Positions 5,365-40,758 of a DNA stretch of 46,544 bases are shown here, one piece after another. The stretch covers positions 1 through 46,544 of the forward strand of contig DASTBC010000163.1 of the NCBI GenBank assembly GCA_035712245.1. Reading direction: 5' to 3'. The notes under the pieces are model-generated. The model made no database searches, was not told the origin of the DNA, and was given only the letters and a program-made list of their open reading frames with translations. Both the position numbers and the translations under genes were made by a program. This DNA is from Candidatus Eisenbacteria bacterium. GTDB lineage: Bacteria; Eisenbacteria; RBG-16-71-46; SZUA-252. The first letter of the stretch is position 1; every line of letters begins with the position of its first letter.

Positions 5365-8300
5365 ATGCGTCGGATCCTGATTCTGGTTCTGGGTGCCGCG
5401 GCGATCGTGGGAGTGGCCGTGCCCGCCGGGGCGCAGTACATGTATCTCGACTCGAACGGGGACGGGGTCCATTCCGCTTCCGACGTGATGAGTCCGAACG
5501 GGACGCCCACCACGGTGGACGTATGGGTCCGCACGAACCAGAATCGGGACGGCAGCGCCGCCGTGTGCAACCGGCAGGATGGCGAGCTGACCATCAACTC
5601 GTACGTGGTCAACCTGGCGGTCGCGAACGGAACGGCGAGCTACAGCGGGTTCATCAACCGGACTCCCTTCGGCGTCGCCTTCGGAGAGCTGAACCCCGGA
5701 AACGGTCTGTACAAGAACGGGTTCGGGCAGCAAGCGCCCCAGCTGCCCGGGCTCTACCGGCTCATGACCCTCACCATCACGGCGACGAGCGGCAGCCCGC
5801 GGGTGGACATCGTCGACATCGTGAACGGCAGCGCCGACTTCACCTCGTTCGGGACGCTGTGCTCGGGGAACGACTTCGACAACACGTACAAGCTGACGGG
5901 TCCCGGCGGGGGCTCGGACTGGACGGACGCGGACGGCCTGAACGCGGCGGGCGGACCGAATACACCACCCGTGCTCGCGCCGATCGGGAACAAGTCTGGA
6001 TTCGTCGGCAGCTGCCAGCCCCAGCCGGTCACGTTCACCGCGACCGCCACGGACCCCGACGCGGGGCAGTCGCTCACGTTTTCGCTGGCCCCGGGTGCGC
6101 CCGCGGGAGCGACGATCCACCCTTCGACCGGCGCGTTCAGCTGGCAGCCGACGACGCCCGGGGTCTTCCCGGTCACGGTCGTCGTGACGGACGACGGAAC
6201 GCCGCCGCTCAGCGACAGCGAGACGATCCAGATCTCGATCGCGGTGGTCAACGAGGCGCCCATCATCCAGGCGATCGGGAACAAGACCGTGAGCGAGGGG
6301 TCGCTTCTCACCTTCGTGGCGACGGCCGTTTTTTCGTGCCCGGACCCGCTCTTCTTCACCCTTGGGTCGGGAGCGCCCGCCGGCGCCGCCATCACGCCGG
6401 GAGGCACTTCGAATTCGGCGAGCGGCACCTTCACGTGGACTCCGAGCGAGGCGCAGGGCCCCGGGACGTATCCCATCACGATCATCGTCACGGACGGCAC
6501 GAGGAGCGACACCGAGACGATCCAGGTCACGGTGCTGGAGGCGAACCAGGCGCCGATCCTGAACCCGATCGGGAACAAGTCGGCGTCGATCGGCTCTCCT
6601 GTGACCTTCACGGCGACCGCGACGGACGCGGACGTCCCGGCCCAGACGCTCACCTTCTCGCTCGGCGCGGGCGCGCCCTCGGGGGCGACGATCGGAGCGT
6701 CCACGGGCAATTTCAGCTGGACGCCGTCGGTGCCGGGCACCTTCGAGGTCACGGTGATCGTGACCGATAACGGCAACCCCGCCCTGAGCGACAACGAGAC
6801 GATCCTGATCGTGACGGGGGGGGTCAACACGCCGCCCGTGCTGGCGGCGATCGGGAACAAGACGGCGAACGAGAACGAGCTCCTGACGTTCACGGCGACT
6901 GCGACGGATGTCGATGTGAATCAGATCCTCACCTTCGCCCTCGGTGCGGGGGCTCCCGCGGGAGCCGCGATCTCACCCGGGGGCGTCTTCACCTGGACCC
7001 CGACGGAGGCCCAGGGTCCCGGCACCTTCCCGATCACGGTCACGGTGACCGACGACGGAGCGCCGCCCCTGAGCGACAGCGAGGCGATCTCGGTCTCCGT
7101 CCTCGACCAGAACAACCTGGCCCCGGTCCTCGCGCCGATCGGAGACAAGACCGCGACCGAAGGGCAGCTCTTGACCTTCACCGCCACGGCCACCGACGGA
7201 GATCTCCCGGCTCAAACGCTCACGTTCTCGCTGGGGGCGGGAAATCCTCCGGGATCCGCGATCTCGCCGGGCGGGAACTTCACCTGGACTCCGACGGAGA
7301 TGCAGGGTGGTTCCTCGTATCCGGTCACGATCCGCGTCTCGGACAACGGAGTGCCGTCCCTCACCGACAACGAGACGATTCTCGTCACGGTGAACGAGAA
7401 CAACATCGCGCCCGTCCTGACTCCCATCGGCGCCAAGACGGCGATGGAGGGCGTGCTCCTGTCCTTCCCGCTGACGGCGACGGACGCCGACATCCCGGCT
7501 CAGTTCCTCGTCTTCTCCTTTGGCCAGGGGGTCGTCCCCGCAGGAGCGATGATCCTCCCCGACAACACCTTCCGGTGGACTCCGTCCGAGGATCAGGGTG
7601 GAGCGGCCTATGCGATCACCTTCGTCGTGACGGACAACGGCACGCCACCGTTGACCGACTCCGAGATCGTGATGATCACGGTCCAGCAGCACAACACCCC
7701 GCCCGTGCTGACACAGCCGTCGGACATGACCGTGGACGAGGGGCAGGTGGCGACTCAGCAGCTGACGGCGACGGACGCCGATCTTCCGGTCAATCCGCTC
7801 ACGTTCAGCAAGGTGACCGGTCCGCTGTTCCTGACGGTCTCGAGCGCCGGCCTCGTCACGGTGACTCCCCAGACGCGGGACGCCGGGAATTATTCCGCGA
7901 CCGTCCGCGTGACGGATAGCGGCCTTCTGAGCGACGTGAAGTCGTTCCTCGTCACCGTGAACAAGGTCAACCTCCTACCGGCCGCCGACGCCAACGGGCC
8001 GTACGTTGGAGTCTCCGGGGTGAACCTCACGTTCGACGGCTCGCTCTCATCGGATCCGAACGGAGACCCGCTCACCTACGCCTGGGACTTCGGCGACGGC
8101 AGCACCGGGAGTGGGGTCAGCCCGACGCACGCCTACGCGGTGGGAGGCCTGTACACTGTGGTCCTCACCGTCAGCGACGGCTCGCTCTCGGCCACCGACA
8201 CGTCGACGGCGACCATCTCCCAGTTCCATTCGTCGCTCGCGTTCGTGACGGGAGGGAACAAGACGGTCCGGCTCGGCTCGGGGAAGCCCCAGACGTGCGT

Positions 8301-8871
8301 GCAGATCGAGCCCGTCTCGGATGCCTACGCGCTCTCCGATGTCGATCTGGCTTCGGTCCGGATGGTGTTCGGAACGAACGAGGTCCCGGCGATCGCAGGG
8401 AAGGCGACCGTCGGGGACGACCGGAACCAGAACGGGGTCATGGAGATCACGGCCTGTTTCTCGAAGGAGAGCCTCCGCGTGCTGTTCGCGGGAGTCGCGA
8501 CGGGAGACTACGAAGTCGCGCTGCGAGGAGACCTGATCACGGGCGGCACGTTCGAGGGATCCCTCACGCTGCACGTGGTCAACAACGGCAGTTTCCTGTC
8601 GGCTAGCGTCTCGCCGAACCCGCTCAACCCGAAGGCGACGGTGTCGTTCGTCACCTCGAGGGTGGGGGCGGTGACCGTCCAGATGTTCGACGTTCAAGGT
8701 CGGTTGATCCGAACCCTGATGGACGAGACTTCGGCTGCCGCGGGACATCATGACGTGACGATCGAAGGAACGGACGCGAATGGTGCCCGGCTCGCGTCGG
8801 GAGTCTATTACGTGAGGATTCGATCCTCCGCGGACGGTGAGGTGCTGAAGGCAGTGACGATCTTGAAGTAG
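5365..8871 (+). CDS. Secreted Ig-repeat / PKD protein, paralog 2
   Basis: The 1168-residue product starts at ATG 5365, chosen because GAGGAGG lies about 10 bases upstream and a clean signal peptide follows (MRRILILVLGAAAI...PAGAQ). The frame itself is open further upstream, into the terminator. The mature end begins QYMYLDSNGDG with an EF-hand/dockerin-like DxNxDG loop, then a domain of about 170 residues shared with the next two genes. After that come six He_PIG units (about 5965-7698), a cadherin-like unit (PSDMTVDEG), a PKD domain (WDFGDGSTGSG, about 7978-8220), the two-cysteine domain (CVQIEP, ACFSK) and the FlgD-like tail ending KAVTILK. Likely surface-exposed; ligand unknown. The stop is followed by only 75 bp and no convincing terminator, so co-transcription with the next gene is likely. 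Confidence 0.92.
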   Translation: MRRILILVLGAAAIVGVAVPAGAQYMYLDSNGDGVHSASDVMSPNGTPTTVDVWVRTNQNRDGSAAVCNRQDGELTINSYVVNLAVANGTASYSGFINRTPFGVAFGELNPGNGLYKNGFGQQAPQLPGLYRLMTLTITATSGSPRVDIVDIVNGSADFTSFGTLCSGNDFDNTYKLTGPGGGSDWTDADGLNAAGGPNTPPVLAPIGNKSGFVGSCQPQPVTFTATATDPDAGQSLTFSLAPGAPAGATIHPSTGAFSWQPTTPGVFPVTVVVTDDGTPPLSDSETIQISIAVVNEAPIIQAIGNKTVSEGSLLTFVATAVFSCPDPLFFTLGSGAPAGAAITPGGTSNSASGTFTWTPSEAQGPGTYPITIIVTDGTRSDTETIQVTVLEANQAPILNPIGNKSASIGSPVTFTATATDADVPAQTLTFSLGAGAPSGATIGASTGNFSWTPSVPGTFEVTVIVTDNGNPALSDNETILIVTGGVNTPPVLAAIGNKTANENELLTFTATATDVDVNQILTFALGAGAPAGAAISPGGVFTWTPTEAQGPGTFPITVTVTDDGAPPLSDSEAISVSVLDQNNLAPVLAPIGDKTATEGQLLTFTATATDGDLPAQTLTFSLGAGNPPGSAISPGGNFTWTPTEMQGGSSYPVTIRVSDNGVPSLTDNETILVTVNENNIAPVLTPIGAKTAMEGVLLSFPLTATDADIPAQFLVFSFGQGVVPAGAMILPDNTFRWTPSEDQGGAAYAITFVVTDNGTPPLTDSEIVMITVQQHNTPPVLTQPSDMTVDEGQVATQQLTATDADLPVNPLTFSKVTGPLFLTVSSAGLVTVTPQTRDAGNYSATVRVTDSGLLSDVKSFLVTVNKVNLLPAADANGPYVGVSGVNLTFDGSLSSDPNGDPLTYAWDFGDGSTGSGVSPTHAYAVGGLYTVVLTVSDGSLSATDTSTATISQFHSSLAFVTGGNKTVRLGSGKPQTCVQIEPVSDAYALSDVDLASVRMVFGTNEVPAIAGKATVGDDRNQNGVMEITACFSKESLRVLFAGVATGDYEVALRGDLITGGTFEGSLTLHVVNNGSFLSASVSPNPLNPKATVSFVTSRVGAVTVQMFDVQGRLIRTLMDETSAAAGHHDVTIEGTDANGARLASGVYYVRIRSSADGEVLKAVTILK

Positions 8872-31320: not shown

Positions 31321-34002
31321 GTGCCGGCGCTGAAGGAGTATCGCCGGAAGCGAGACTTCACGCGCACGCCGGAGCCGCGCGGCGCGCGCCACGTGCCGGC
31401 CCGCGCCCGAGGCCGGGCCGCGGCCACGGGCAAGGATCTCCGGTTCGTGGTGCAGAAGCACGCCGCCTCGCGGCTCCACTACGACTTCCGGCTCGAGCTG
31501 GATGGAGTCCTGAAGAGCTGGGCCGTTCCGAAAGGGCCGAGCCTCGTGCCCGGAGACAAGCGCCTGGCCGTCGAGGTCGAGGATCACCCCCTCGAGTACG
31601 GGGACTTCGAGGGGACGATTCCGAAGGGAGAGTACGGCGGCGGGTCCGTCCTTCTCTGGGATCACGGCTCGTGGGTTCCCAAGGGGGATCCGCGCGAGGG
31701 ACTCCGGAAGGGACGGCTCGGCTTCGAGCTCGGCGGTGAGAAGCTGCACGGCGCATGGATCCTCGTCCGCATGAAGCTCGAGGACGGCGAGAAGCCGACG
31801 TGGCTCCTCATGAAGGAGCGCGACCGATACGCCCGGCCGGATTCCTCGAAGAGCATCGTCGACTCCCGGCCGGAGAGCGTCGTGACCGGGAGGAGGATCG
31901 AGGAGATTGGCCGTTCGGGGTCCAAGGAGCGCGAGTGGTCTTCCAGCCGACCCTCCGCGCGCCGTGCGCGAACGAGCCTCCTTGCCGGCGTGGCGGCTTC
32001 TCCGGGCAGGGCCACGGGTGCGCCCAAGCGCGTCTCCACCAGGCCTGCGCCCGCTCCACAGCTCGCCACGCTCGTCCGCGCGGCTCCCGAAGGGGACGGC
32101 TGGCTGCACGAGATCAAGTACGACGGATATCGCGCGCTCGCGGTCGTGGAAGGGGGGCACGCGACACTCCTGACACGGTCGGGCCAGGACTGGACCGAGC
32201 GATTCCAGGAGGTCGCCGGGGACGTCGCAGCGCTTCCCGTGAAGAACGCGATTCTCGACGGCGAGATCGTCGTGGTGGAGGAAGACGGGCGCACGAGCTT
32301 CCAGGCGCTCCAGAACTCCATGCGCCGCGACCGGGGCGCGGACCTGGTCTACTACGTGTTCGACTTCCTGGAGCGCGACGGACGTGACCTCCGGCGCCTT
32401 CCGCTCGAGGAGCGAAAGGAAGCGCTCCGAGACCTCCTCGCGGAATCGGATCCCTCGAACGGACGCGTCCGCTACAGCGATCACGTCATCGGTCAAGGGC
32501 CTCGGTTTCATCGGGAAGCTTGCCGGAAGAGACTCGAGGGGATCGTCTCGAAGCGGCGGGATGCCCCGTATCGTCCCGGACGCTCGGACGCATGGCTCAA
32601 GGTGAAGTGCTCCGACCGGCAGGAGTTCGTGATCGGCGGCTTCACCGAGCCGCAGGGCTCGCGGGCGGGTCTGGGAGCGCTCCTCCTCGGCGTTCACGAG
32701 AAGGACGGGCTCCGGTACTGCGGGCGCGTCGGCACGGGGTTCACCCAAGAACTCGCGCGCGAGCTGCGGAAGCGGCTCGAGGGAATGAGCGTGGATCGCG
32801 CTCCGTTCCGCGATCCGCCGAGAGGAAGGGGGCTGCACTGGGTCCGTCCCGAGCTCGTCGCCGAGGTCTCGTTCACCGGCTTCACGGACGACGGCAAGGT
32901 CCGGCACCCGTCCTTCCGCGGACTTCGGGAGGACAAGCCGGCCCGCGAGGCGTTCCGCGATCGACCGAGGGTCCCACCGAAGCCGACGCGGAAGGGCCCC
33001 CCGAAGCGGGATCCGGGGCGGAGGGCGCCCGTGAAGGAGCCGCCGGCCGAGGACCCGCCGAAGCCCCCCGTGCGGGAGCCGCCCGACGAAGTGCGGGAGG
33101 CGTCGTATCTCGGCGTGCGGGTGACGCATCCCGGTCGCGTGATCGATCCCGAGAGCGAAACGACGAAAGGTGATCTCGCCGCGTACATGGCCACGGTCGC
33201 GGTCCGCATGTTCCCCCACGTCGAGGGCCGACCGCTCATGCTCCTCCGGTGCCCCGACGGGAGGCACCGCGAGTGCTTCTTCCAGAAGCACCCCAGCACG
33301 CCCCTCGCGCCGACCCTCGCGACGGTGACCGTCACCGAGTCGAAGGGGAAACGTCCCTATCTGAGCGTCCGCACGCCGGCAGGGCTCGTGTCGCTCGTAC
33401 AGATGGGAGCGCTCGAGGTCCATGTCTGGGGATCCCGCGCCGATCGGGAGGAGCGGCCCGACCGCGTGGTCTTCGACCTGGATCCGGGCCCTTCCGTTCC
33501 GTGGCACGAGACGGTGCGGACGGCGCACTCGATCCGGGACCGGCTCGAGGAGCTTGGGCTCACGAGCTACGCCAAGACCACGGGCGGAAAGGGGCTCCAC
33601 GTGGTGGTGCCGATTCGCCGCGGCCCGGACTGGAAGACGGTCGCGGACTTCTCCGGGGCGATCGCGTCGGAGATCGTGCGCGGCGACCCGGACCGCTTCA
33701 CCACCCAGCTCGCGAAGGACCGGCGTCGCGGGCGCATTCTGATCGACACCCTGCGGAACCGCAGGGGCGCGACGTGGGTGGCGCCCTACTCGCCACGCGC
33801 CCGGGAGGGGGTGACCGTCTCCACACCCGTGGCGTGGTCCGAGCTCACGCCCCGCCTCGCGCCCGAGCGCATGACCGTGGCCACCGTACCCAAACGTCTG
33901 GCCCGAGCGGATCCATGGGCCGAAATGGAACGCGTCACGCAGACGATCACCGCATCCGTCCTCCGCGCCATCCTTCCCAGGACCGCCACTCACCGCGTGT
34001 AA
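31321..34002 (+). CDS. ligD: NHEJ DNA ligase D (phosphoesterase-ligase-polymerase)
   Basis: The 893-residue protein has all three LigD activities in the Pseudomonas-like order. Residues about 40-190: 3'-phosphoesterase (RFVVQKHAASRLHYDFRLEL, EDHPLEYGDFEGTIPKGEYG). About 240-540: ATP-dependent ligase with motif I EIKYDGYRAL, catalytic Lys266, then ILDGEIVV, EGIVSKRRDAPY and WLKVKC. A proline/lysine linker (about 545-590) leads to the primase-like polymerase (about 600-880) with catalytic Asp719 and Asp721 in VFDLDPGPS, and KTTGGKGLHVVVP. No catalytic residue looks lost. GTG 31321 is 2 bases after ku. Together they are a complete two-protein NHEJ system. Confidence 0.97.
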   Translation: MPALKEYRRKRDFTRTPEPRGARHVPARARGRAAATGKDLRFVVQKHAASRLHYDFRLELDGVLKSWAVPKGPSLVPGDKRLAVEVEDHPLEYGDFEGTIPKGEYGGGSVLLWDHGSWVPKGDPREGLRKGRLGFELGGEKLHGAWILVRMKLEDGEKPTWLLMKERDRYARPDSSKSIVDSRPESVVTGRRIEEIGRSGSKEREWSSSRPSARRARTSLLAGVAASPGRATGAPKRVSTRPAPAPQLATLVRAAPEGDGWLHEIKYDGYRALAVVEGGHATLLTRSGQDWTERFQEVAGDVAALPVKNAILDGEIVVVEEDGRTSFQALQNSMRRDRGADLVYYVFDFLERDGRDLRRLPLEERKEALRDLLAESDPSNGRVRYSDHVIGQGPRFHREACRKRLEGIVSKRRDAPYRPGRSDAWLKVKCSDRQEFVIGGFTEPQGSRAGLGALLLGVHEKDGLRYCGRVGTGFTQELARELRKRLEGMSVDRAPFRDPPRGRGLHWVRPELVAEVSFTGFTDDGKVRHPSFRGLREDKPAREAFRDRPRVPPKPTRKGPPKRDPGRRAPVKEPPAEDPPKPPVREPPDEVREASYLGVRVTHPGRVIDPESETTKGDLAAYMATVAVRMFPHVEGRPLMLLRCPDGRHRECFFQKHPSTPLAPTLATVTVTESKGKRPYLSVRTPAGLVSLVQMGALEVHVWGSRADREERPDRVVFDLDPGPSVPWHETVRTAHSIRDRLEELGLTSYAKTTGGKGLHVVVPIRRGPDWKTVADFSGAIASEIVRGDPDRFTTQLAKDRRRGRILIDTLRNRRGATWVAPYSPRAREGVTVSTPVAWSELTPRLAPERMTVATVPKRLARADPWAEMERVTQTITASVLRAILPRTATHRV

Positions 34003-34575: not shown

Positions 34576-34672
34576 CGCCCTTGGTCCTAGAGCGTTCTGG
34601 AAAGTTCGCCGGCAGGCAACACCAAGCCGTCGAATGAACGGGGGAATGCACAACCCAGCCATGTCCCCCGGG

Positions 34673-34707
34673 GCCCCCGCGCCTGAGTGCGCGGGGGCTT
34701 CATTTTT
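34673..34707 (+). terminator. Rho-independent terminator
   Basis: A perfect 10-bp stem GCCCCCGCGC/GCGCGGGGGC (34673-34682 with 34689-34698), six-base loop, then TTCATTTTT. It ends the transcript of the 34150 gene, and possibly ku-ligD read-through. Confidence 0.88.
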
Positions 34708-34731
34708 GGGGGATCCGCTACCCCCGACCCG

Positions 34732-34746
34732 TTGTACATTCTACAA
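34732..34746. promoter_or_regulatory. Palindrome TTGTA-N5-TACAA, candidate activator site
   Basis: TTGTACATTCTACAA is a perfect 5-bp inverted repeat with a five-base gap. The same arrangement, TTGTAGGTATTACAA, lies ahead of csbD at 40237. Both precede a -24/-12-like element by 70-100 bases. Confidence 0.5.
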
Positions 34747-34829
34747 TCAAGTGTCCAGAGTGGAGCGGTCCAGGTGCGTCAGATCCTGTAAGTCGTTGGT
34801 TTCAAGCCTTGTTTCCGGTCTTCGAGCCC

Positions 34830-34845
34830 TGGCATGGAACGTGAT
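34830..34845 (+). promoter_or_regulatory. Weak sigma-54-like element upstream of the lmo0937-like gene
   Basis: TGGCATG-GAAC-GTGAT matches TGGCACG-N4-TTGCW at 9 of 12 positions, but the invariant -12 GC is GA. It aligns with the better csbD element GGCATGGAAGGTGCT at 40305, which is why it is listed. Confidence 0.3.
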
Positions 34846-34944
34846 TGTGGGTTCTCGCGGGGCACCGCCCGCAACCCTCTGGCGTCCGGCCGGGTGCGGT
34901 CCCAGCGGGCCTAGCTTTGGACGGGACGCAAGGAGGAGGCACCG

Positions 34945-35094
34945 ATGCTTTGGACCATCACGGTTTTGCTGTTCCTGATGTGGCTTGTGGGAATGGTCTC
35001 CAACTACACACTCGGTGGGTTCATCCACCTTCTGCTGTTGCTCGCCATCGTGACGATGCTCATTCGCATCATCCAGGGCAGGCGACCGGTGTGA
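34945..35094 (+). CDS. lmo0937-like small membrane protein
   Basis: The 49-residue protein starts at ATG 34945 behind AAGGAGGAGG. Two hydrophobic helices (LWTITVLLFLMWLVGMV and FIHLLLLLAIVTMLIRII) are joined by SNYTLGG, the plan of the lmo0937-family small membrane proteins, and it ends with basic QGRRPV. Family members are short stress-associated membrane proteins; no biochemical role is known. It is too short for most gene finders. Two hairpins follow. Its leader resembles that of csbD, which suggests shared control. Confidence 0.85.
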   Translation: MLWTITVLLFLMWLVGMVSNYTLGGFIHLLLLLAIVTMLIRIIQGRRPV

Positions 35095-35101
35095 TGGAGG
35101 C

Positions 35102-35162
35102 GGAGCCGCGCTCGGTTAGCGGCTCCAGAACGGCAGGGAAGGCTCGGCAGACGGGCCTTCCC
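35102..35162 (+). terminator. Two consecutive hairpins after the lmo0937-like gene
   Basis: GGAGCCGC/GCGGCTCC (35102-35109 with 35119-35126) and GGGAAGGC/GCCTTCCC (35136-35143 with 35155-35162). Neither has a true T-run, but together they probably end this short transcript. The following 150 bases to 35314 show no convincing gene. Confidence 0.5.
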
Positions 35163-35314
35163 TGAAACTTGCGTGTCGGTGATCGAACCGTCTTCCGTGA
35201 GCACTGTTGCATGAACGTCGGCGTTCGAAGCCCGCCTGGAAGCCGTTGCGGCGACCAGGACGAGCGGAGACCGCCATCCCGGTCGCCGCGTCCTTCGCGG
35301 CGTGAACCCCAACG

Positions 35315-35527
35315 TCAGTGCACGAGGCCCTCGCCTTGATACTCATCGCCGGCGGAACGGCGCCCGCTCGACGACGTCCACTTCTGAACCATGTGCTCGC
35401 CGCAGCAGCATTTCGGCGCGAGCTCCGCATCTTCCTCCGGCATGCTCGATCCCTTGGTCACGCGGATCTCGCAGCCGCAGTCCGGATTCGGGCACTGGTA
35501 GGTGTCCCCGTTCCGCATCAGAGCCAC
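35315..35527 (-). CDS. Small zinc-ribbon-like protein
   Basis: The 70-residue protein starts at GTG 35527, preferred over ATG 35518 because the GGGAGGGGGA site is correctly spaced only for the GTG. It has two cysteine clusters, YQCPNPDCGCEIRVTKG and PKCCCGEHMVQKW, forming a likely zinc-ribbon. Similar short proteins are found beside stress genes in many soil bacteria; role unknown. The GTG start overlaps the end of the DUF892 gene by 10 bases, so they form one operon. Confidence 0.75.
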   Translation of the reverse strand: MALMRNGDTYQCPNPDCGCEIRVTKGSSMPEEDAELAPKCCCGEHMVQKWTSSSGRRSAGDEYQGEGLVH

Positions 35528-36123
35528 GGGCCGTCCCCCTCCCGCCGTCGCTCGGATTCGGCGCCCGTTTGCCGTGTTCCGGTTCGCGGGGAACCGCGCT
35601 TCTCACCTTCCTTGTCCCCGGTCTCGCTCCCCGCGGTCTCGGCCTCCGCGTTGATGGTCGATTCCGCGATGTCGGTCAGCCGGCGATCCGCTTCCTTCTC
35701 CTCCTCGAGGATCTCCTGGAGGATCCGGGCGGACTTGGTGTCTCCCTTCGTCTCCGCGAACGTGCGGAGGGTTCCATACGAGGCGATCTCGTAATGCTCG
35801 ACCTTCTGAGCCGCCGCGATGATGCCTGCGTCGAGGACGTCAGGCTCGAAGTCCTCCTCGAGGATCTCCTGACCTTCCTCGATGAGTCCGCCCATGCCCT
35901 TGCACGTCTTGCCCGTGGCCGGACGCCCGAGGCCGCGGAAGATCTCCTCGAGCCGCTCGACCTGGCGCTTCGTGACCTCGAGGTGCTCCTCGAGCGCCGC
36001 TCGAAGCTCACGGTTCGAGGCCGCCTTGGCCATCTTCGGCAGGGCTTTCGTGAGCTGCTTCTCGGCGTTGTACATGTCCCGGAGCTGATCCACGTACAGC
36101 TTGTCGAACGAATCCATCTGCAT
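35518..36123 (-). CDS. Ferritin-like DUF892 (YciE/YciF) stress protein
   Basis: The 201-residue protein is a DUF892 four-helix bundle of the ferritin-like superfamily, induced by stress in several bacteria (YciF/YciE). Signatures: DKLYVDQLRDMYNAEKQLTK, RAALEEHLEVTKRQVERLE, KCKGMxGL-like TCKGMGGLIEEGQEIL, VLDAGIIAAAQKVEHYEIA and the closing AxILQEILEEEKEADRRL. The acidic/His residues for a di-metal site (E in YNAEKQ, EEH, VEHYEIA, EEEKEAD) are present. A polar tail of about 45 residues follows. ATG 36123 has AGGAGG nine bases upstream. Confidence 0.92.
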   Translation of the reverse strand: MQMDSFDKLYVDQLRDMYNAEKQLTKALPKMAKAASNRELRAALEEHLEVTKRQVERLEEIFRGLGRPATGKTCKGMGGLIEEGQEILEEDFEPDVLDAGIIAAAQKVEHYEIASYGTLRTFAETKGDTKSARILQEILEEEKEADRRLTDIAESTINAEAETAGSETGDKEGEKRGSPRTGTRQTGAESERRREGDGPWL

Positions 36124-36276
36124 GATGAAGTTCCTCCTGGCCCGGAAGGCGGGCCGGCCGGCGCGAGCGCGCCGGGTTCAGGGCTTGGTCTCGCTCCACA
36201 GCCGGGGAGGCCGGGAACGCGTGCGCTTCCAGATGAGCCACGTGGGGCGTTTTCGATACGGTGTCGCGGAAGTGAA

Positions 36277-36309
36277 GCCGCGGCGCAGCGGAATCGCCTG
36301 CGCCGCGGC
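36277..36309 (-). terminator. Hairpin between ytxH-like and DUF892 genes
   Basis: A perfect 12-bp GC stem (36277-36288 with 36298-36309) with a nine-base loop. On the minus strand it follows the ytxH-like stop by about 30 bases and is followed by TTCACTTCC. The rest of 36124-36339 shows no gene. Confidence 0.5.
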
Positions 36310-36339
36310 GGTGTCGCTCTTCAAGGATCGGTACCGGTG

Positions 36340-36651
36340 TCAGCTCGTAGGAGACCAAGCTCCGGACGTCCCTCGCGCTTCACGGGACCGCCGGTACTCC
36401 TCACGTCCACGCTCCATGGCGCTCCGCGCGTCGTCCTTGATGCCGCGGATCGACTCACGCGTGCGTCCGAACACGTTCCGGGCATTCCCGCCCAGCTTCT
36501 TCGCCGTGCTGCCGAGGCGCTGCCGGGTATCCCTTCCCGCGGCCGGCGCGAGGAGGAGCGCCAGGCCGGCACCGACGAGTGCTCCAACCAAGAAGTTCGG
36601 TTTCACCTTCCTGCCGGTTCCATGGATGTCGAGGTTCTGGAGTTCATGCAT
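36340..36651 (-). CDS. YtxH-domain protein
   Basis: The 103-residue protein has the YtxH pattern: one glycine-rich hydrophobic segment (NFLVGALVGAGLALLLAPAAG) followed by RDTRQRLGSTAKKLG and a charged helical tail (SIRGIKDDARSAMERGREEY). YtxH proteins are small general-stress proteins anchored at the membrane. ATG 36651 has GGGAGG upstream. It faces away from the histidine kinase across 393 bases and is followed by DUF892. Confidence 0.85.
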   Translation of the reverse strand: MHELQNLDIHGTGRKVKPNFLVGALVGAGLALLLAPAAGRDTRQRLGSTAKKLGGNARNVFGRTRESIRGIKDDARSAMERGREEYRRSREARGTSGAWSPTS

Positions 36652-37044
36652 GGGTTCTTCCTCCCTTCCGTGACGGTTCGTCGCGATTCAGTGCCGCGGG
36701 AACTCCGGTACAAGGAAGCCTCGCCTCGTTTGTACCAATTACCGCGAAAAACCGAGGTATGCAGCCCACCTTGCGTCCCGCGTCCGCGCCGATACGAACA
36801 TGCGGCCGCCGTAACTTCCGTCGGGGCCGAAGTCGCCCCCCCAACGTGGATAAAAGCCGTGCAATATCGAGGCCAGGGTGCGGATGCGAGGACGCGCACC
36901 ATGAGGCTCGTGCTCGGGCCGCGCGAATCGACGAGGAAGCAGCCCCTTGAACCTTCGCGCGGCCGGGTGTCATCCTTGATGGGACGATGCGGGGTTCGCT
37001 CCGCGCCGCGAACGAAACCTCCTCGTACCCAGGATCGCGCGTCC
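36652..37044. other. Intergenic region between the ytxH-like gene and the histidine kinase
   Basis: No gene seen. It contains an inverted pair GGTACAA (36707-36713) and TTGTACC (36730-36736) with a 16-base gap, related in sequence to the TTGTA/TACAA palindromes elsewhere in this island. In-frame starts at 36901 and 36977 could extend the kinase, but nothing in that extension looks conserved. Confidence 0.4.
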
Positions 37045-37845
37045 ATGGTCCGTCCGTCCGACTCCAGCGACATCTCCTTCGCCGCACTGGGAGGCGCTCC
37101 TCTCCTTCGCCAGGCGGACGAGCGCCTGCTCGTGGCGTACTTCATGGGAGTGTCGCGACTCTTCCAGGAGATCTCCCATGACATGCGGGGACCCCTTCAC
37201 TCGATGACGCTTCACCTGGAGCTGCTCCGGCTCTCACTGGACGAGCCCGGCAGCCCCGAGTCGAAGGCGAAGCAGGAGCGCTACCTGGGATCGATCGGGG
37301 CGGAGATCCAGCGGCTGGCACGCATGATCGAAGCGCTCTGGGGGCACTCGGGAACCCCGGAGCACTCCGTCGAGCGCTTCGATCTACGGGACACGGTGCG
37401 CGCGCTCTCCGAAGTGCTCGACCCTCATTGCCGGCGCTCGCAGGTCCGTCTCCGCGTGCGTCTCCCCGATGTCCCGATCGAGGTCTCGGGCAGTCCGGGC
37501 GCGATCCGGCACGCCGCGCTCGACCTCGTCTCCCATGCGCTGAGCGCGATGCCGGATGGAGGAGATCTGGAGATCCTGCTCGAGCGGCGGGAGGGAGACA
37601 TTCTCTTGAGGGTCGCCGACCTCGACGGAACCCCGGGTGCGGGTCCCGCGCGCGACGGGAGCGCCCGCCCGCCGGGGACCTTCCCGGAGCCGGAGACGGC
37701 AGAGCCGGTCATCCCGCAGATCGCCCGCCTCGTGATCGAGGCGCACGGCGGCAGCCTGAGGGTGATCTCGAACGCGAATCGCCCGCCGCGCTTCGAGCTC
37801 ACGCTTCCGCTGCCGTCTTCACCCACTCAACCGAATCCGGAGTAA
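37045..37845 (+). CDS. Soluble histidine kinase with degraded ATP-binding domain
   Basis: The 266-residue protein starts at ATG 37045 and has no membrane segment or sensor domain. The dimerisation helix carries a good H-box (RLFQEISHDMRGPLHSM, His45). The catalytic domain is unusual. The N-box region reads ALDLVSHALSAMPDGG, where NtrB-like kinases have N-L-x-x-N-A; both asparagines are replaced (Asp160, His164). G1 is ADLDGTPG, and the G2 glycines before the last helix are replaced by PVIPQIARLVIEAHGG. It may therefore bind ATP poorly and act as a phosphatase or scaffold. The NtrC-type regulator starts 10 bases downstream, so they form a pair. Confidence 0.8.
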   Translation: MVRPSDSSDISFAALGGAPLLRQADERLLVAYFMGVSRLFQEISHDMRGPLHSMTLHLELLRLSLDEPGSPESKAKQERYLGSIGAEIQRLARMIEALWGHSGTPEHSVERFDLRDTVRALSEVLDPHCRRSQVRLRVRLPDVPIEVSGSPGAIRHAALDLVSHALSAMPDGGDLEILLERREGDILLRVADLDGTPGAGPARDGSARPPGTFPEPETAEPVIPQIARLVIEAHGGSLRVISNANRPPRFELTLPLPSSPTQPNPE

Positions 37846-37854
37846 GGAGCACTC

Positions 37855-39204
37855 ATGCCGCAGGCATTGATCGTCGACGACGAACCGAACTCGGTCCATG
37901 CGATGGCCGAGCTCGTGGAAAAGGAAGGATTCGCGACCGCGACCGCCGGGACGCTGTCCGAGGCGCGGAACCGCCTGTCGGAAGACCGGCCGGACGTGAT
38001 CCTCGTGGACCTCATGCTTCCGGACGGGAGCGGGCTCAGTCTGCTGGACGAGCTGGATCCGGCGCGGCGGACCGAGGTGATTCTGGTCTCGGGCCAGGCA
38101 ACCGTGGACTCCGCCATTTCGGCGCTGCGCGTCGGAGTTCTGGATTACCTCACGAAGCCGGTGGACGTACGGCGCCTGAAATCGGTCCTCGCGAACGTCT
38201 CGCGCACCCTTGCCCTGAAGGAAGAGGTGGGCTCGCTGCGCGAAGAGCTGCGCCAGCTGGGCCACTTCGGACGCCTCATCGGCAACTCGCCGCCCATGCA
38301 GCGCGTCTACGACCTCATCATGAAGGTGGCGCCCACCGACGCCACGGTCCTCCTGGTGGGAGAGAGCGGCACGGGGAAGGAGGAGGTCGCCGCCACGATC
38401 CACGAGCTGGGAAAACGTCGAAAGCAGCCCTTCCTCCCGCTCAACTGCGGCGCCGTTCCACCAAACCTGATCGAGAGCGAGCTCTTCGGGCACGAGCGCG
38501 GCAGCTTCACGGGGGCGACGCAGCTTCACCGCGGCTACTTCGAGCGGGCGTCGAAGGGCACCCTGTTCCTCGACGAGATCACCGAGATGCCGCTCGAACT
38601 CCAGGTGAAGCTCCTTCGCGTGCTCGAGACCGGCACCGTATCCCGGGTGGGAGGGGACGAGCCGATCGCGGTCGACGTTCGCGTCATCGCGGCGAGCAAC
38701 CGTGTCCCCGAGGTGGCCGTGAAGGAGGGGAAGTTCCGCGACGACCTGCTCTACCGCCTCAACGTGTTTCCCATCGTCCTGCCGCCGCTCCGTGATCGCG
38801 AGGGGGACATCGAGCTGCTCGCCGAGCACTTCCTCGCGCAGCTGAATCGCGAAGAAGGCACCTCCAAGAAGTTCGGCGCCGCCGCGCGCCGCCGCATCAA
38901 CGGCTACGCGTGGCCGGGAAACGTGCGCGAGCTCATGAACATGGTGCGGCGCGCGTTCATCCTCGCCGAGGACATGGTCGAGATGGAGGGTCTTCCGGTC
39001 GGCGTCGCCTCGTCCTCGCCGTCGGGTGCCGCCGGCGCGACCGAGGCGATCCGCGTGGGCATGTCCCTCGCGGAGCTGGAGCGGCACTTCATCCTCGCGA
39101 CGCTCGAGCAATACGGCGGGGACAAGAGAAAGGCCGCGGAGGTTCTCGGAATCAGCCTCAAGACCATGTACAACCGCCTGAACAACTACGCCGCCACCGT
39201 GTAG
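37855..39204 (+). CDS. NtrC-family sigma-54 response regulator
   Basis: The 449-residue bacterial enhancer-binding protein has a receiver (phospho-Asp52 in VILVDLMLPDGSG, Lys101 in YLTKPVD), an AAA+ domain (Walker A GESGTGKE 169-176, sigma-54 contact loop ELFGHERGSFTGAT, Walker B TLFLDE 236-241, NVRELMNMVRRA) and a C-terminal Fis-like helix-turn-helix (YGGDKRKAAEVLGISLKTMYNRL). The contact loop is GSFTGA rather than GAFTGA, a tolerated variant. AAGGAG precedes ATG 37855. It should activate sigma-54 promoters from upstream enhancers; a near-consensus one lies 150 bases downstream at 39353. rpoN is not in the window. Confidence 0.95.
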   Translation: MPQALIVDDEPNSVHAMAELVEKEGFATATAGTLSEARNRLSEDRPDVILVDLMLPDGSGLSLLDELDPARRTEVILVSGQATVDSAISALRVGVLDYLTKPVDVRRLKSVLANVSRTLALKEEVGSLREELRQLGHFGRLIGNSPPMQRVYDLIMKVAPTDATVLLVGESGTGKEEVAATIHELGKRRKQPFLPLNCGAVPPNLIESELFGHERGSFTGATQLHRGYFERASKGTLFLDEITEMPLELQVKLLRVLETGTVSRVGGDEPIAVDVRVIAASNRVPEVAVKEGKFRDDLLYRLNVFPIVLPPLRDREGDIELLAEHFLAQLNREEGTSKKFGAAARRRINGYAWPGNVRELMNMVRRAFILAEDMVEMEGLPVGVASSSPSGAAGATEAIRVGMSLAELERHFILATLEQYGGDKRKAAEVLGISLKTMYNRLNNYAATV

Positions 39205-39224
39205 CCAAGGCGGATGATGCGGAC

Positions 39225-39265
39225 GGCCCGGCACGCGGGTTCGCGCGCCGGGCCTTCGTGTTTCC
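39225..39265 (+). terminator. Terminator after the NtrC-type gene
   Basis: Stem GGCCCGGC/GCCGGGCC (39225-39232 with 39247-39254), continued inside by CGCG/CGCG around GGTT, then TTCGTGTTTCC. Confidence 0.75.
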
Positions 39266-39352
39266 TGCCCGCGGCTCCCGAATTTCCACCCACCATAGAA
39301 GAATCTACCGACGCGAACCCCATCCGTCTCGGAAGTACCGAGCGCGCGCCGC

Positions 39353-39368
39353 TGGCACGCTTGCTGCC
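39353..39368 (+). promoter_or_regulatory. Sigma-54-type promoter upstream of DUF6496/YflT-like genes
   Basis: TGGCACG-CTTG-CTGCC has a perfect -24 box, three of five bases in the -12 box and exact GG-N10-GC spacing (GG 39354-39355, GC 39366-39367). It lies between the activator gene's terminator and ATG 39427, giving a leader of about 48 bases. Confidence 0.6.
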
Positions 39369-39426
39369 AATCACTCGGACCGCAACCCGCGGCGTGCTTC
39401 GCGCGCCGCGTCAGGGAGGAAGCACC

Positions 39427-39606
39427 ATGCCACGATACGGTCCGGCCGCGTCCCGTTCGGTCGAGCGCGCGATGCGCAAGCGCAAGAAAGGAACGCTGAA
39501 GAGCGGGAGGAGCGGGAAGACGGTGAAGAGCCGCGAGCAGGCCATCGCGATCGGCCTCTCGGAGGCGCGGCAAAAGGGCGCGAAGGTGCCCAGCAAGCGG
39601 AAATAG
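39427..39606 (+). CDS. DUF6496 small basic protein
   Basis: The 59-residue protein starts at ATG 39427 behind AGGGAGGA. The pattern MPRYGPAASRSVERAM, then KGTLKSGRSGKTVKSREQA and IAIGLSEARQKGAKVP matches the DUF6496 family of short lysine/arginine-rich proteins. The family has no assigned function; its conserved part resembles nucleic-acid-binding tails and it often sits among stress genes. It is first in a likely operon with the YflT-like gene (48 bases downstream), under a sigma-54-like promoter. Confidence 0.85.
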   Translation: MPRYGPAASRSVERAMRKRKKGTLKSGRSGKTVKSREQAIAIGLSEARQKGAKVPSKRK

Positions 39607-39654
39607 GCCATCGACCCGGCGCGCTGCGCGCGCTCGAACAGAAGGAGAGCCGAC

Positions 39655-40146
39655 ATGGCGAAACTCATCACGGGACTGTTTCATTCACGGGAGAGCGCGG
39701 AGCTGGCCGCGGAGGAGCTGGTGAAGGCGGGATTCTCGCCGGACGACATCAGCCTCCTCATGTCCGACACCACGCGGGGTCGCGAGTTCGCGATCAAGAA
39801 GAGCACGAAGGCGCCCGAGGGTGCCGCCACCGGTGCCGCGGTGGGAGGGGCGCTCGGAGCGGTGGCCGCCGGCCTCGCGGCGGTCGCGACGCTCACGATC
39901 CCCGGTCTGCAGGTCCTCGCGGCGGGCCCCATCGTGGCGGCGCTGACCGGCCTGGGCGCCGGGGCGGCGGCGGGAGGTCTGACGGGTGCCCTCATCGGCC
40001 TCGGCATTCCCGAGCACGAGGCGAAGTTCTTCCATGGCGAGATCGAGCGGGGAGGGATTCTGCTCGGCGTCTACGCGCATGACGACCGCACCAAGACGGC
40101 GAAGGAGATCCTCGAGTCCGCCGGCGCGGAACGGATCCGCGGCTGA
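39655..40146 (+). CDS. YflT-like general stress protein with glycine-zipper core
   Basis: The 163-residue protein begins with a stress-protein 17M/YflT-like fold (LITGLFHSRESAELAAEELV, GFSPDDISLLMSD). A strongly hydrophobic glycine/alanine-rich centre follows (AATGAAVGGALGAVAAGLAA, GLGAGAAAGGLTGALIGLG), then the family end IPEHEAKFFHGEIERGGILL with VYAHDDRTKTAKEILESAGA. Such proteins are heat, salt or general-stress induced and probably membrane-associated; mechanism unknown. GAAGGAG precedes ATG 39655. Second gene of the DUF6496 operon, closed by a long hairpin. Confidence 0.88.
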   Translation: MAKLITGLFHSRESAELAAEELVKAGFSPDDISLLMSDTTRGREFAIKKSTKAPEGAATGAAVGGALGAVAAGLAAVATLTIPGLQVLAAGPIVAALTGLGAGAAAGGLTGALIGLGIPEHEAKFFHGEIERGGILLGVYAHDDRTKTAKEILESAGAERIRG

Positions 40147-40169
40147 TCCGAAGTCAGGCTGGAAACCCG

Positions 40170-40198
40170 CGGCTCCGCCCTCATCGAGGGCGGAGCCG
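40170..40198 (+). terminator. Terminator after the YflT-like gene
   Basis: A perfect 13-bp stem (40170-40182 with 40186-40198) closes a three-base loop ATC, followed by TTGTGGTTTC. Strong hairpin, weak T-run. Confidence 0.7.
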
Positions 40199-40236
40199 TT
40201 GTGGTTTCAGTCCTTGTAAGAAGGAAAACGGCCCTG

Positions 40237-40251
40237 TTGTAGGTATTACAA
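40237..40251. promoter_or_regulatory. Palindrome TTGTA-N5-TACAA upstream of csbD
   Basis: TTGTAGGTATTACAA repeats the arrangement of 34732-34746 exactly in both half-sites. It lies 68 bases upstream of the sigma-54-like element at 40304, a usual enhancer distance. Confidence 0.5.
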
Positions 40252-40303
40252 AGACGGTCGCCAGGAGTGGGCCGATTCGTTGGAATCAAAGCATCTACAA
40301 ACC

Positions 40304-40319
40304 CGGCATGGAAGGTGCT
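40304..40319 (+). promoter_or_regulatory. Sigma-54-like promoter upstream of csbD
   Basis: CGGCATG-GAAG-GTGCT matches TGGCACG-N4-TTGCW at 9 of 12 positions, with exact GG-N10-GC spacing (GG 40305-40306, GC 40317-40318). The leader would be about 215 bases, which is long. Confidence 0.4.
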
Positions 40320-40545
40320 CTGACCGCCGCCGTTGCTTGCTTCGGCAACGATGGTCGATCACGAATCCGGCGGCACCTCACGGTAGGTGGGCCGGAGTCA
40401 CGATAGAGCGAGCAGGTGCTGGAGATACTGGGCTGAGCTACCTGGCCCAACCCGAAGGCAGTGTGGTTCGCCCGTCTCCCTGGCTCTGCTCGCAATGCTT
40501 TCCAAATCGAGATCGGTATCAAGATGCACCGGGCCGGAGGCCACG

Positions 40546-40758
40546 ATGAGCTGGGACCGTATCGAGGGTAGCTGGAGGCAGCTTCGCGGAAAGGTTCGCG
40601 AGCAATGGGGAAAGCTCACCGATGATGATTTGGACGTCATCGCTGGCAAGCGCGACATGCTTCTCGGCAAGCTCCAGGAAACGTACGGCATCGCTCAGGA
40701 CGAGGCGGAACGCCAGGTGCGCGACTTTCAGCGCCAGTACGAGGGAGGGCGCTCCTGA
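40546..40758 (+). CDS. csbD: CsbD-family stress protein
   Basis: The 70-residue protein starts at ATG 40546 with CGGAGG upstream. MSWDRIEGSWRQLRGKVREQ, WGKLTDDDLDVIAGKRDMLL and GKLQETYGIAQDEAERQV cover the whole CsbD family pattern, a small helical hydrophilic protein induced by general stress in many bacteria (under sigma-B in Bacillus). Function unknown; probably protective. Monocistronic here, with a long leader carrying a palindrome and a sigma-54-like element. Confidence 0.92.
   Translation: MSWDRIEGSWRQLRGKVREQWGKLTDDDLDVIAGKRDMLLGKLQETYGIAQDEAERQVRDFQRQYEGGRS

Follow-up and report, generated by a model that had tools for sequence, protein, structure and literature searches.

Shared leader architecture of an lmo0937-like gene and csbD, with a predicted sigma-54 activator site and its candidate NtrC-type regulator

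The lmo0937-like and csbD locus. The window analysed here is a stretch of 46,544 nucleotides from Candidatus Eisenbacteria bacterium. It carries a gene cluster (Table 1) in which an lmo0937-like gene and csbD flank genes for a YtxH-like protein, a DUF892 protein, a histidine kinase, an NtrC-type regulator, a DUF6496 protein and a YflT-like protein. The lmo0937-like peptide scores 52 bits against NF033488 (cut-off 30) and 49 against PF18919 (cut-off 23.5), and the CsbD-like protein scores 72.1 against PF05532 (cut-off 40). The open frame upstream of the cluster (31321-34002) looks, from its translation, like a LigD-type ligase, and a homologue occupies the same place in the related genome G004. 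Because the leaders of the lmo0937-like gene and csbD begin right after intrinsic-terminator-like hairpins, each gene is probably its own transcription unit.

Table 1. Coordinates of genes and leader features in the window.
Feature	Position	Strand	Remarks
Intrinsic-terminator-like hairpin	34670..34701	+	end of upstream unit, just 5' of lmo0937-like leader
Palindrome TTGTA-N5-TACAA, lmo0937-like leader	34732-34746	+	TTGTACATTCTACAA; predicted upstream activator site
CCAGAGTGG box, lmo0937-like leader	34755-34763	+	possibly a degenerate second dyad
CGTTGGTTTCAA box, lmo0937-like leader	34794-34805	+	common to csbD leader only; possibly a DNA-bending site
-24/-12-like element, lmo0937-like leader	34830..34845	+	TGGCATGGAACGTGAT; -12 GC reads GA
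Fourth shared block, lmo0937-like leader	34831-34843	+	GGCATGGAACGTG
lmo0937-like membrane peptide	34945..35094	+	DUF5670, 49 aa
DUF892 protein	35518..36123	-	ferritin-like
YtxH-like protein	36340..36651	-	
Sigma-54-like element of ytxH	36860..36875	-	TGGCCTCGATATTGCA; aligned in G002, G004
Histidine kinase	37045..37845	+	HisKA, HATPase_c; start uncertain
NtrC-type response regulator	37855..39204	+	proposed palindrome binder; receiver, sigma-54 interaction domain, GSFTGA loop, Fis-type HTH
Sigma-54 element of DUF6496-YflT genes	39353..39368	+	TGGCACGCTTGCTGCC; conserved in G002, G004; palindrome absent
DUF6496 protein	39427..39606	+	
YflT/DUF1269-like stress protein	39655..40146	+	
Intrinsic-terminator-like hairpin	40169..40199	+	just 5' of csbD leader
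Additional half-site TTGTAA	40214..40219	+	23 bp upstream of csbD palindrome; also in G002
Palindrome TTGTA-N5-TACAA, csbD leader	40237-40251	+	TTGTAGGTATTACAA; predicted upstream activator site
CCAGGAGTGG box, csbD leader	40261-40270	+	possibly a degenerate second dyad
CGTTGGAATCAA box, csbD leader	40278-40289	+	counterpart in lmo0937-like leader
-24/-12 element, csbD leader	40304..40319	+	CGGCATGGAAGGTGCT
Fourth shared block, csbD leader	40305-40317	+	GGCATGGAAGGTG
CsbD-like stress protein	40546..40758	+	70 aa

The initial annotation held that the two leaders, 5.5 kb apart, share four blocks in the same order within otherwise different sequence. This shared architecture is confirmed, since all four blocks are present in both leaders at the positions it gave and the flanks indeed differ. 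The only exact matches to GGCATGGAANGTG in the window are these two. The CCAG(G)AGTGG and CGTTGGnnTCAA boxes are common to the two window leaders only; neither is conserved as such in the leaders of relatives that were read, and this includes CGTTGGnnTCAA considered as an IHF-like site. A search of 99 genomes with the palindrome plus the CCAG pattern gave 20 places in 12 genomes, and a similar promoter context was seen at none of the eight loci read outside the own genome (G000), so this pattern was rejected.

A GG-N10-GC element had also been proposed for both leaders. The csbD leader keeps it, with two mismatches from the consensus TGGCAYG-N4-YTGCW, whereas the lmo0937-like leader, likewise two mismatches away, reads GG-N10-GA, and its -12 element is degraded. 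The counterparts of both promoters in G004 are each one mismatch from the sigma-54 consensus, and RpoN is encoded by the own genome, as it is by 45 of 47 genomes of the class. A sigma-70-type promoter was rejected for these genes, as none was found within 34600-40600.

The cluster carries two further sigma-54-like elements. The one preceding the DUF6496-YflT genes is conserved in three genomes and no TTGTA palindrome was found in that leader; this operon may be served by another activator site. In the ytxH leader of the own genome, TTGGTACAA and an inverted TTGTACC copy 16 bp away lie downstream of the promoter (36709-36744), and the ytxH leaders of G002, G003 and G004 carry a compact TTGTAACAA in place of the palindrome.

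The palindrome at sigma-54 promoters of relatives

Loci of relatives were fetched by gene homology, not by motif, and comprise the neighbourhoods of 16 regulator orthologues and several DUF5670 loci. They were scanned for TGGCAYG-N4-YTGCW with at most one mismatch and for the palindrome, again with at most one mismatch, 40-220 bp upstream. The palindrome precedes 7 of the 24 sigma-54 sites, a count that takes in neither window promoter given their two mismatches each. The same 24 sites gave zero for each of 19 permuted half-sites and zero for all 12 other spacers (0-4 and 6-12). In other taxa, 80 named loci contain 33 perfect sigma-54 sites, of which 5 have the palindrome upstream, against 2 for the best permuted half-site.

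The csbD leaders of G000, G002 and G004 all carry both the palindrome and the -24/-12 element, and in the DUF5670 leaders from G004 and G028, TGGCACG-N4-CTGC is preceded by a near-palindrome at 109 and 114 bp, respectively. This phylogenetic footprinting strongly supports the earlier proposal of a palindromic activator site upstream of the -24/-12 element, and the predicted site TTGTA-N5-TACAA is very probably an upstream activator site of sigma-54 promoters. The second lmo0937/DUF5670 gene of the own genome (G000:C275:6676-6822; L042, L084) has a leader without the palindrome.

A composite pattern (TGTA-N5-TACA, 45-105 bp, GGCAYG-N5-TGC) occurs at 15 places in 10 of the 47 class genomes, against a control of zero. 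These places represent 14 palindromes, with that of G039 read in both directions, and the place on the + strand of G007 points into the end of a gene. In 89 further genomes of the class of the Deltaproteobacterium with locus L136, the strict TTGTA form does not occur (control also zero). Six of 49 genomes of other taxa with a relative of the regulator match the composite (10 places, control 1), and most Burkholderiales do not. In Rokubacteria (L161, L203/L206), a related but longer dyad, GTGTAAC-N-GTTACAC, lies between the divergent sigma-54-like sites of DksA-type/BON genes and of a small protein. Six spellings of the motif gave no match in literature text.

The palindrome is also not scattered at random across the own genome. 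Three exact copies are present in 3.54 Mb, two of them in the window, against none for the reversed control, and allowing one mismatch gives 8 against 2. Downstream of the third copy, on the minus strand of contig C228, come a second TACA half-site, a sigma-54-like element and a gene for a protein with Ig-type domains. A homologue of this gene in G002, a genome of the same genus, is identical at 267 of 462 aligned positions (58% over the part compared), and in its leader an exact palindrome precedes a GGCACG-N5-TGC element by 99 bp. All three exact palindromes of the own genome therefore look like promoter sites. The strict composite recovers two of them (csbD and C228) and misses the lmo0937-like site because its -12 element is GA.

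CsbD stands behind palindrome promoters in G000 and G004, and in frame-shifted form in G002. The G002 reading frame (L069, about 8298-8440) has an intact promoter, and the frame shift might be an assembly error or decay. DUF5670 stands behind such promoters in G000, G004 and G028; in G018 the protein in this position is DUF5670-like and narrowly misses the cut-off. Other genes in this position code for UspA, DUF1328, entericidin, PrkA, an ECF sigma factor and two BON proteins, one of which follows a gene for a DksA-type zinc-finger protein. Several downstream genes lack an assignment or look unrelated to stress, such as a glycosyltransferase gene (G006) and a diacylglycerol kinase gene (G038), the latter behind a palindrome with two mismatches.

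Co-occurrence with the NtrC-type regulator

The protein encoded at 37855 matches the Pfam families Response_reg, Sigma54_activat and HTH_8 and has a GSFTGA loop, the composition of an NtrC-type enhancer-binding protein. Orthologues (at least 55% identity) are present in 17 of the 47 class genomes, and the composite motif is found in 10 of these 17 carriers versus 0 of 30 non-carriers (Fisher 3.8e-6); it is absent in its strict form from the other 7 carriers. Within the family of the own genome the motif is present in 6 of 6 carriers and 0 of 3 non-carriers. The corresponding figures for family f8, 4 of 10 and 0 of 10, are weak when taken alone (p = 0.09). All 10 genomes with the motif thus carry the orthologue, which supports the previously suggested link between the palindrome and the local regulator as its putative binder.

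In a tree of the regulator, the presence of the motif changes 8 times, compared with a mean of 14.5 and a minimum of 10 in 300 label shuffles. Of the 75 rows of this tree, 65 were labelled; 18 Burkholderiales rows that were near-identical had been excluded beforehand, as had rows whose matched span fell below 380 residues. In the printed part of the alignment, the HTH reads mostly G-D/N-K in the class orthologues and in the Deltaproteobacterial protein, and G-V-K in many Burkholderiales rows. This difference might set specificity. In a plasmid similarity search, matches among the best 20 of 405 records are confined to the stretch of the regulator gene.

A different NtrC-type paralogue might bind the palindrome as a sigma-54 activator site, with the local regulator controlling something else. 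Such paralogues are numerous in genomes of the class (11 matches at 1e-80 in G000), and a search of 420 bp of upstream sequence at the regulator genes of G000, G002 and G004 turned up no palindrome. We nevertheless consider this alternative unlikely, as the motif follows this particular orthologue, both across the class and within one family. In addition, palindrome sites adjoin the regulator gene in several genomes, and in G038 the orthologue itself has an exact palindrome (L093, 1501-1515) about 157 bp upstream, where it might permit autoregulation. The 37855 regulator is therefore retained as the likely binder of the palindrome.

Spacing, half-sites and chance resemblance

The distance from the start of the palindrome to the T of the -24 element is 98 in the lmo0937-like leader and 67 in the csbD leader, and the leaders differ in spacing by 31, 21 and 10 bp, each close to a whole number of helical turns. 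For a wider comparison, promoters with at most two summed mismatches and a spacing of up to 140 were kept. This set has 20 members, two of them from the window and two (L185, L196) from loci that had been retrieved with the motif. Outside the window, the 18 spacings range from 67 to 129 bp and concentrate in a single helical phase for a turn of 10.5 bp (Rayleigh p = 0.006), a period scan peaks at 10.2-10.5, and the two window spacings fit the phase of the others. An upstream enhancer dyad at conserved distance and phase, as in the sigma-54-dependent promoter class, is therefore what is found here.

These spacings also bear on the idea that some other protein family uses the palindrome as a repressor operator, which by coincidence lies upstream of these genes. 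A 15-bp dyad would suit many dimeric regulators, but a site at this distance upstream of the -24/-12 element is positioned for activation by looping, and the single helical phase and the strict specificity of spacer length and half-site also speak against this idea. We regard this explanation as very improbable and return to the activator site.

Six of the 20 promoters have a second TACA half-site at offsets of 28-32, counted from where the palindrome begins, and one other TACA falls at offsets 16-58. The CCAG(G)AGTGG box sits where this half-site recurs, and the csbD leader of G004 reads CCAGGACTTACAT there. As a separate conserved site the box was rejected, since it is not conserved and coincides with the second half-sites; it is possibly a degenerate second dyad. 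In G000 and G002 alike, the csbD leader has a further half-site, TTGTAA, 23 bp ahead of the palindrome.

The resemblance of the two leaders was compared with chance by block-wise local alignment, in which 0, 5, 1 and 10 of 3000 dinucleotide shuffles scored as high under four scoring schemes, as did 11 of 2918 pairs of GC-matched window segments. When gaps were made very cheap in a generic alignment, the leaders did not stand out from chance, their score being equalled in 114 of 2000 shuffles and by 2092 of 2943 random pairs from the window, and this permissive whole-leader test was rejected as non-discriminating in favor of the block-wise one. That the leaders are look-alikes by chance or duplication, or carry RNA-level elements, can practically be dismissed: the permissive alignment would allow it, but the flanks differ, the block-wise tests are significant, the arrangement recurs in other genomes, and both leaders fold in an ordinary way (z 0.43 and 0.11), so that RNA structure was rejected.

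A predicted stress regulon and its known counterparts

The analysis computed the palindrome site, its position relative to the -24/-12 element, its conservation and its co-occurrence with the regulator. From these sequence comparisons, we consider it quite probable that the 37855 NtrC-type regulator binds the palindrome and that this site serves a sigma-54-dependent stress regulon as its upstream activator site. In this model, a stress signal would reach the regulator, which is presumably phosphorylated by the kinase encoded just upstream. A regulator dimer would bind the palindrome, perhaps with the aid of weaker half-sites at a distance of about two helical turns, and would loop out 50-110 bp of DNA. 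Its AAA+ domain, through the GSFTGA loop, could then open sigma-54 polymerase at the -24/-12 element and so turn on csbD, the lmo0937-like peptide and a small number of distant genes.

CsbD and lmo0937 belong to the sigma-B general stress regulons of Bacillus and Listeria. The output protein families are the same here, whereas the promoters are sigma-54-type and have a dyad upstream. Enhancer sites of the NtrC and ZraR type consist of a dyad with a short fixed spacer, upstream of -24/-12 and bound by a Fis-type HTH. The dyad layout and the proposed Fis-type HTH binder are alike in the present system, but the half-site is TTGTA rather than the TGCAC of NtrC. As a kind, the predicted TTGTA-N5-TACAA system belongs to the already known enhancer-binding-protein regulons.

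The closest known system is DVU3305 of Desulfovibrio vulgaris, which two reports describe as an NtrC-type general-stress response regulator with an adjacent kinase, whose sigma-54 targets include stress and UspA-domain genes and whose binding site is conserved at orthologues (PMC3333781, PMC4641369). It resembles the 37855 regulator, with its predicted targets, in its type, its kinase neighbour, its sigma-54 stress/UspA targets and the conservation of a binding site at orthologues. The loop reads GAFSGA in DVU3305 and GSFTGA in the 37855 protein, and DVU3305 is linked to a Lon-domain response regulator.

The shared arrangement before stress genes of distant regulator-carrying bacteria probably marks a shared stress-response circuit. 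It is conceivable, if somewhat short of probable, that this reflects a general stress response of several phyla in which sigma-54 and an enhancer-binding protein, acting at the operator TTGTA-N5-TACAA, drive CsbD, DUF5670, DUF1328, UspA, BON, entericidin and PrkA, kinds of proteins driven elsewhere by sigma-B or RpoS. The GTGTAAC-N-GTTACAC dyad of some Rokubacteria would then be a more extended form of that operator. An unstudied yet recurrent regulator thus gains a concrete candidate operator, and orphan stress genes (CsbD, lmo0937/DUF5670, YtxH, DUF892) become candidate members of a sigma-54 regulon that can be tested, in bacteria known mostly through genome assemblies.
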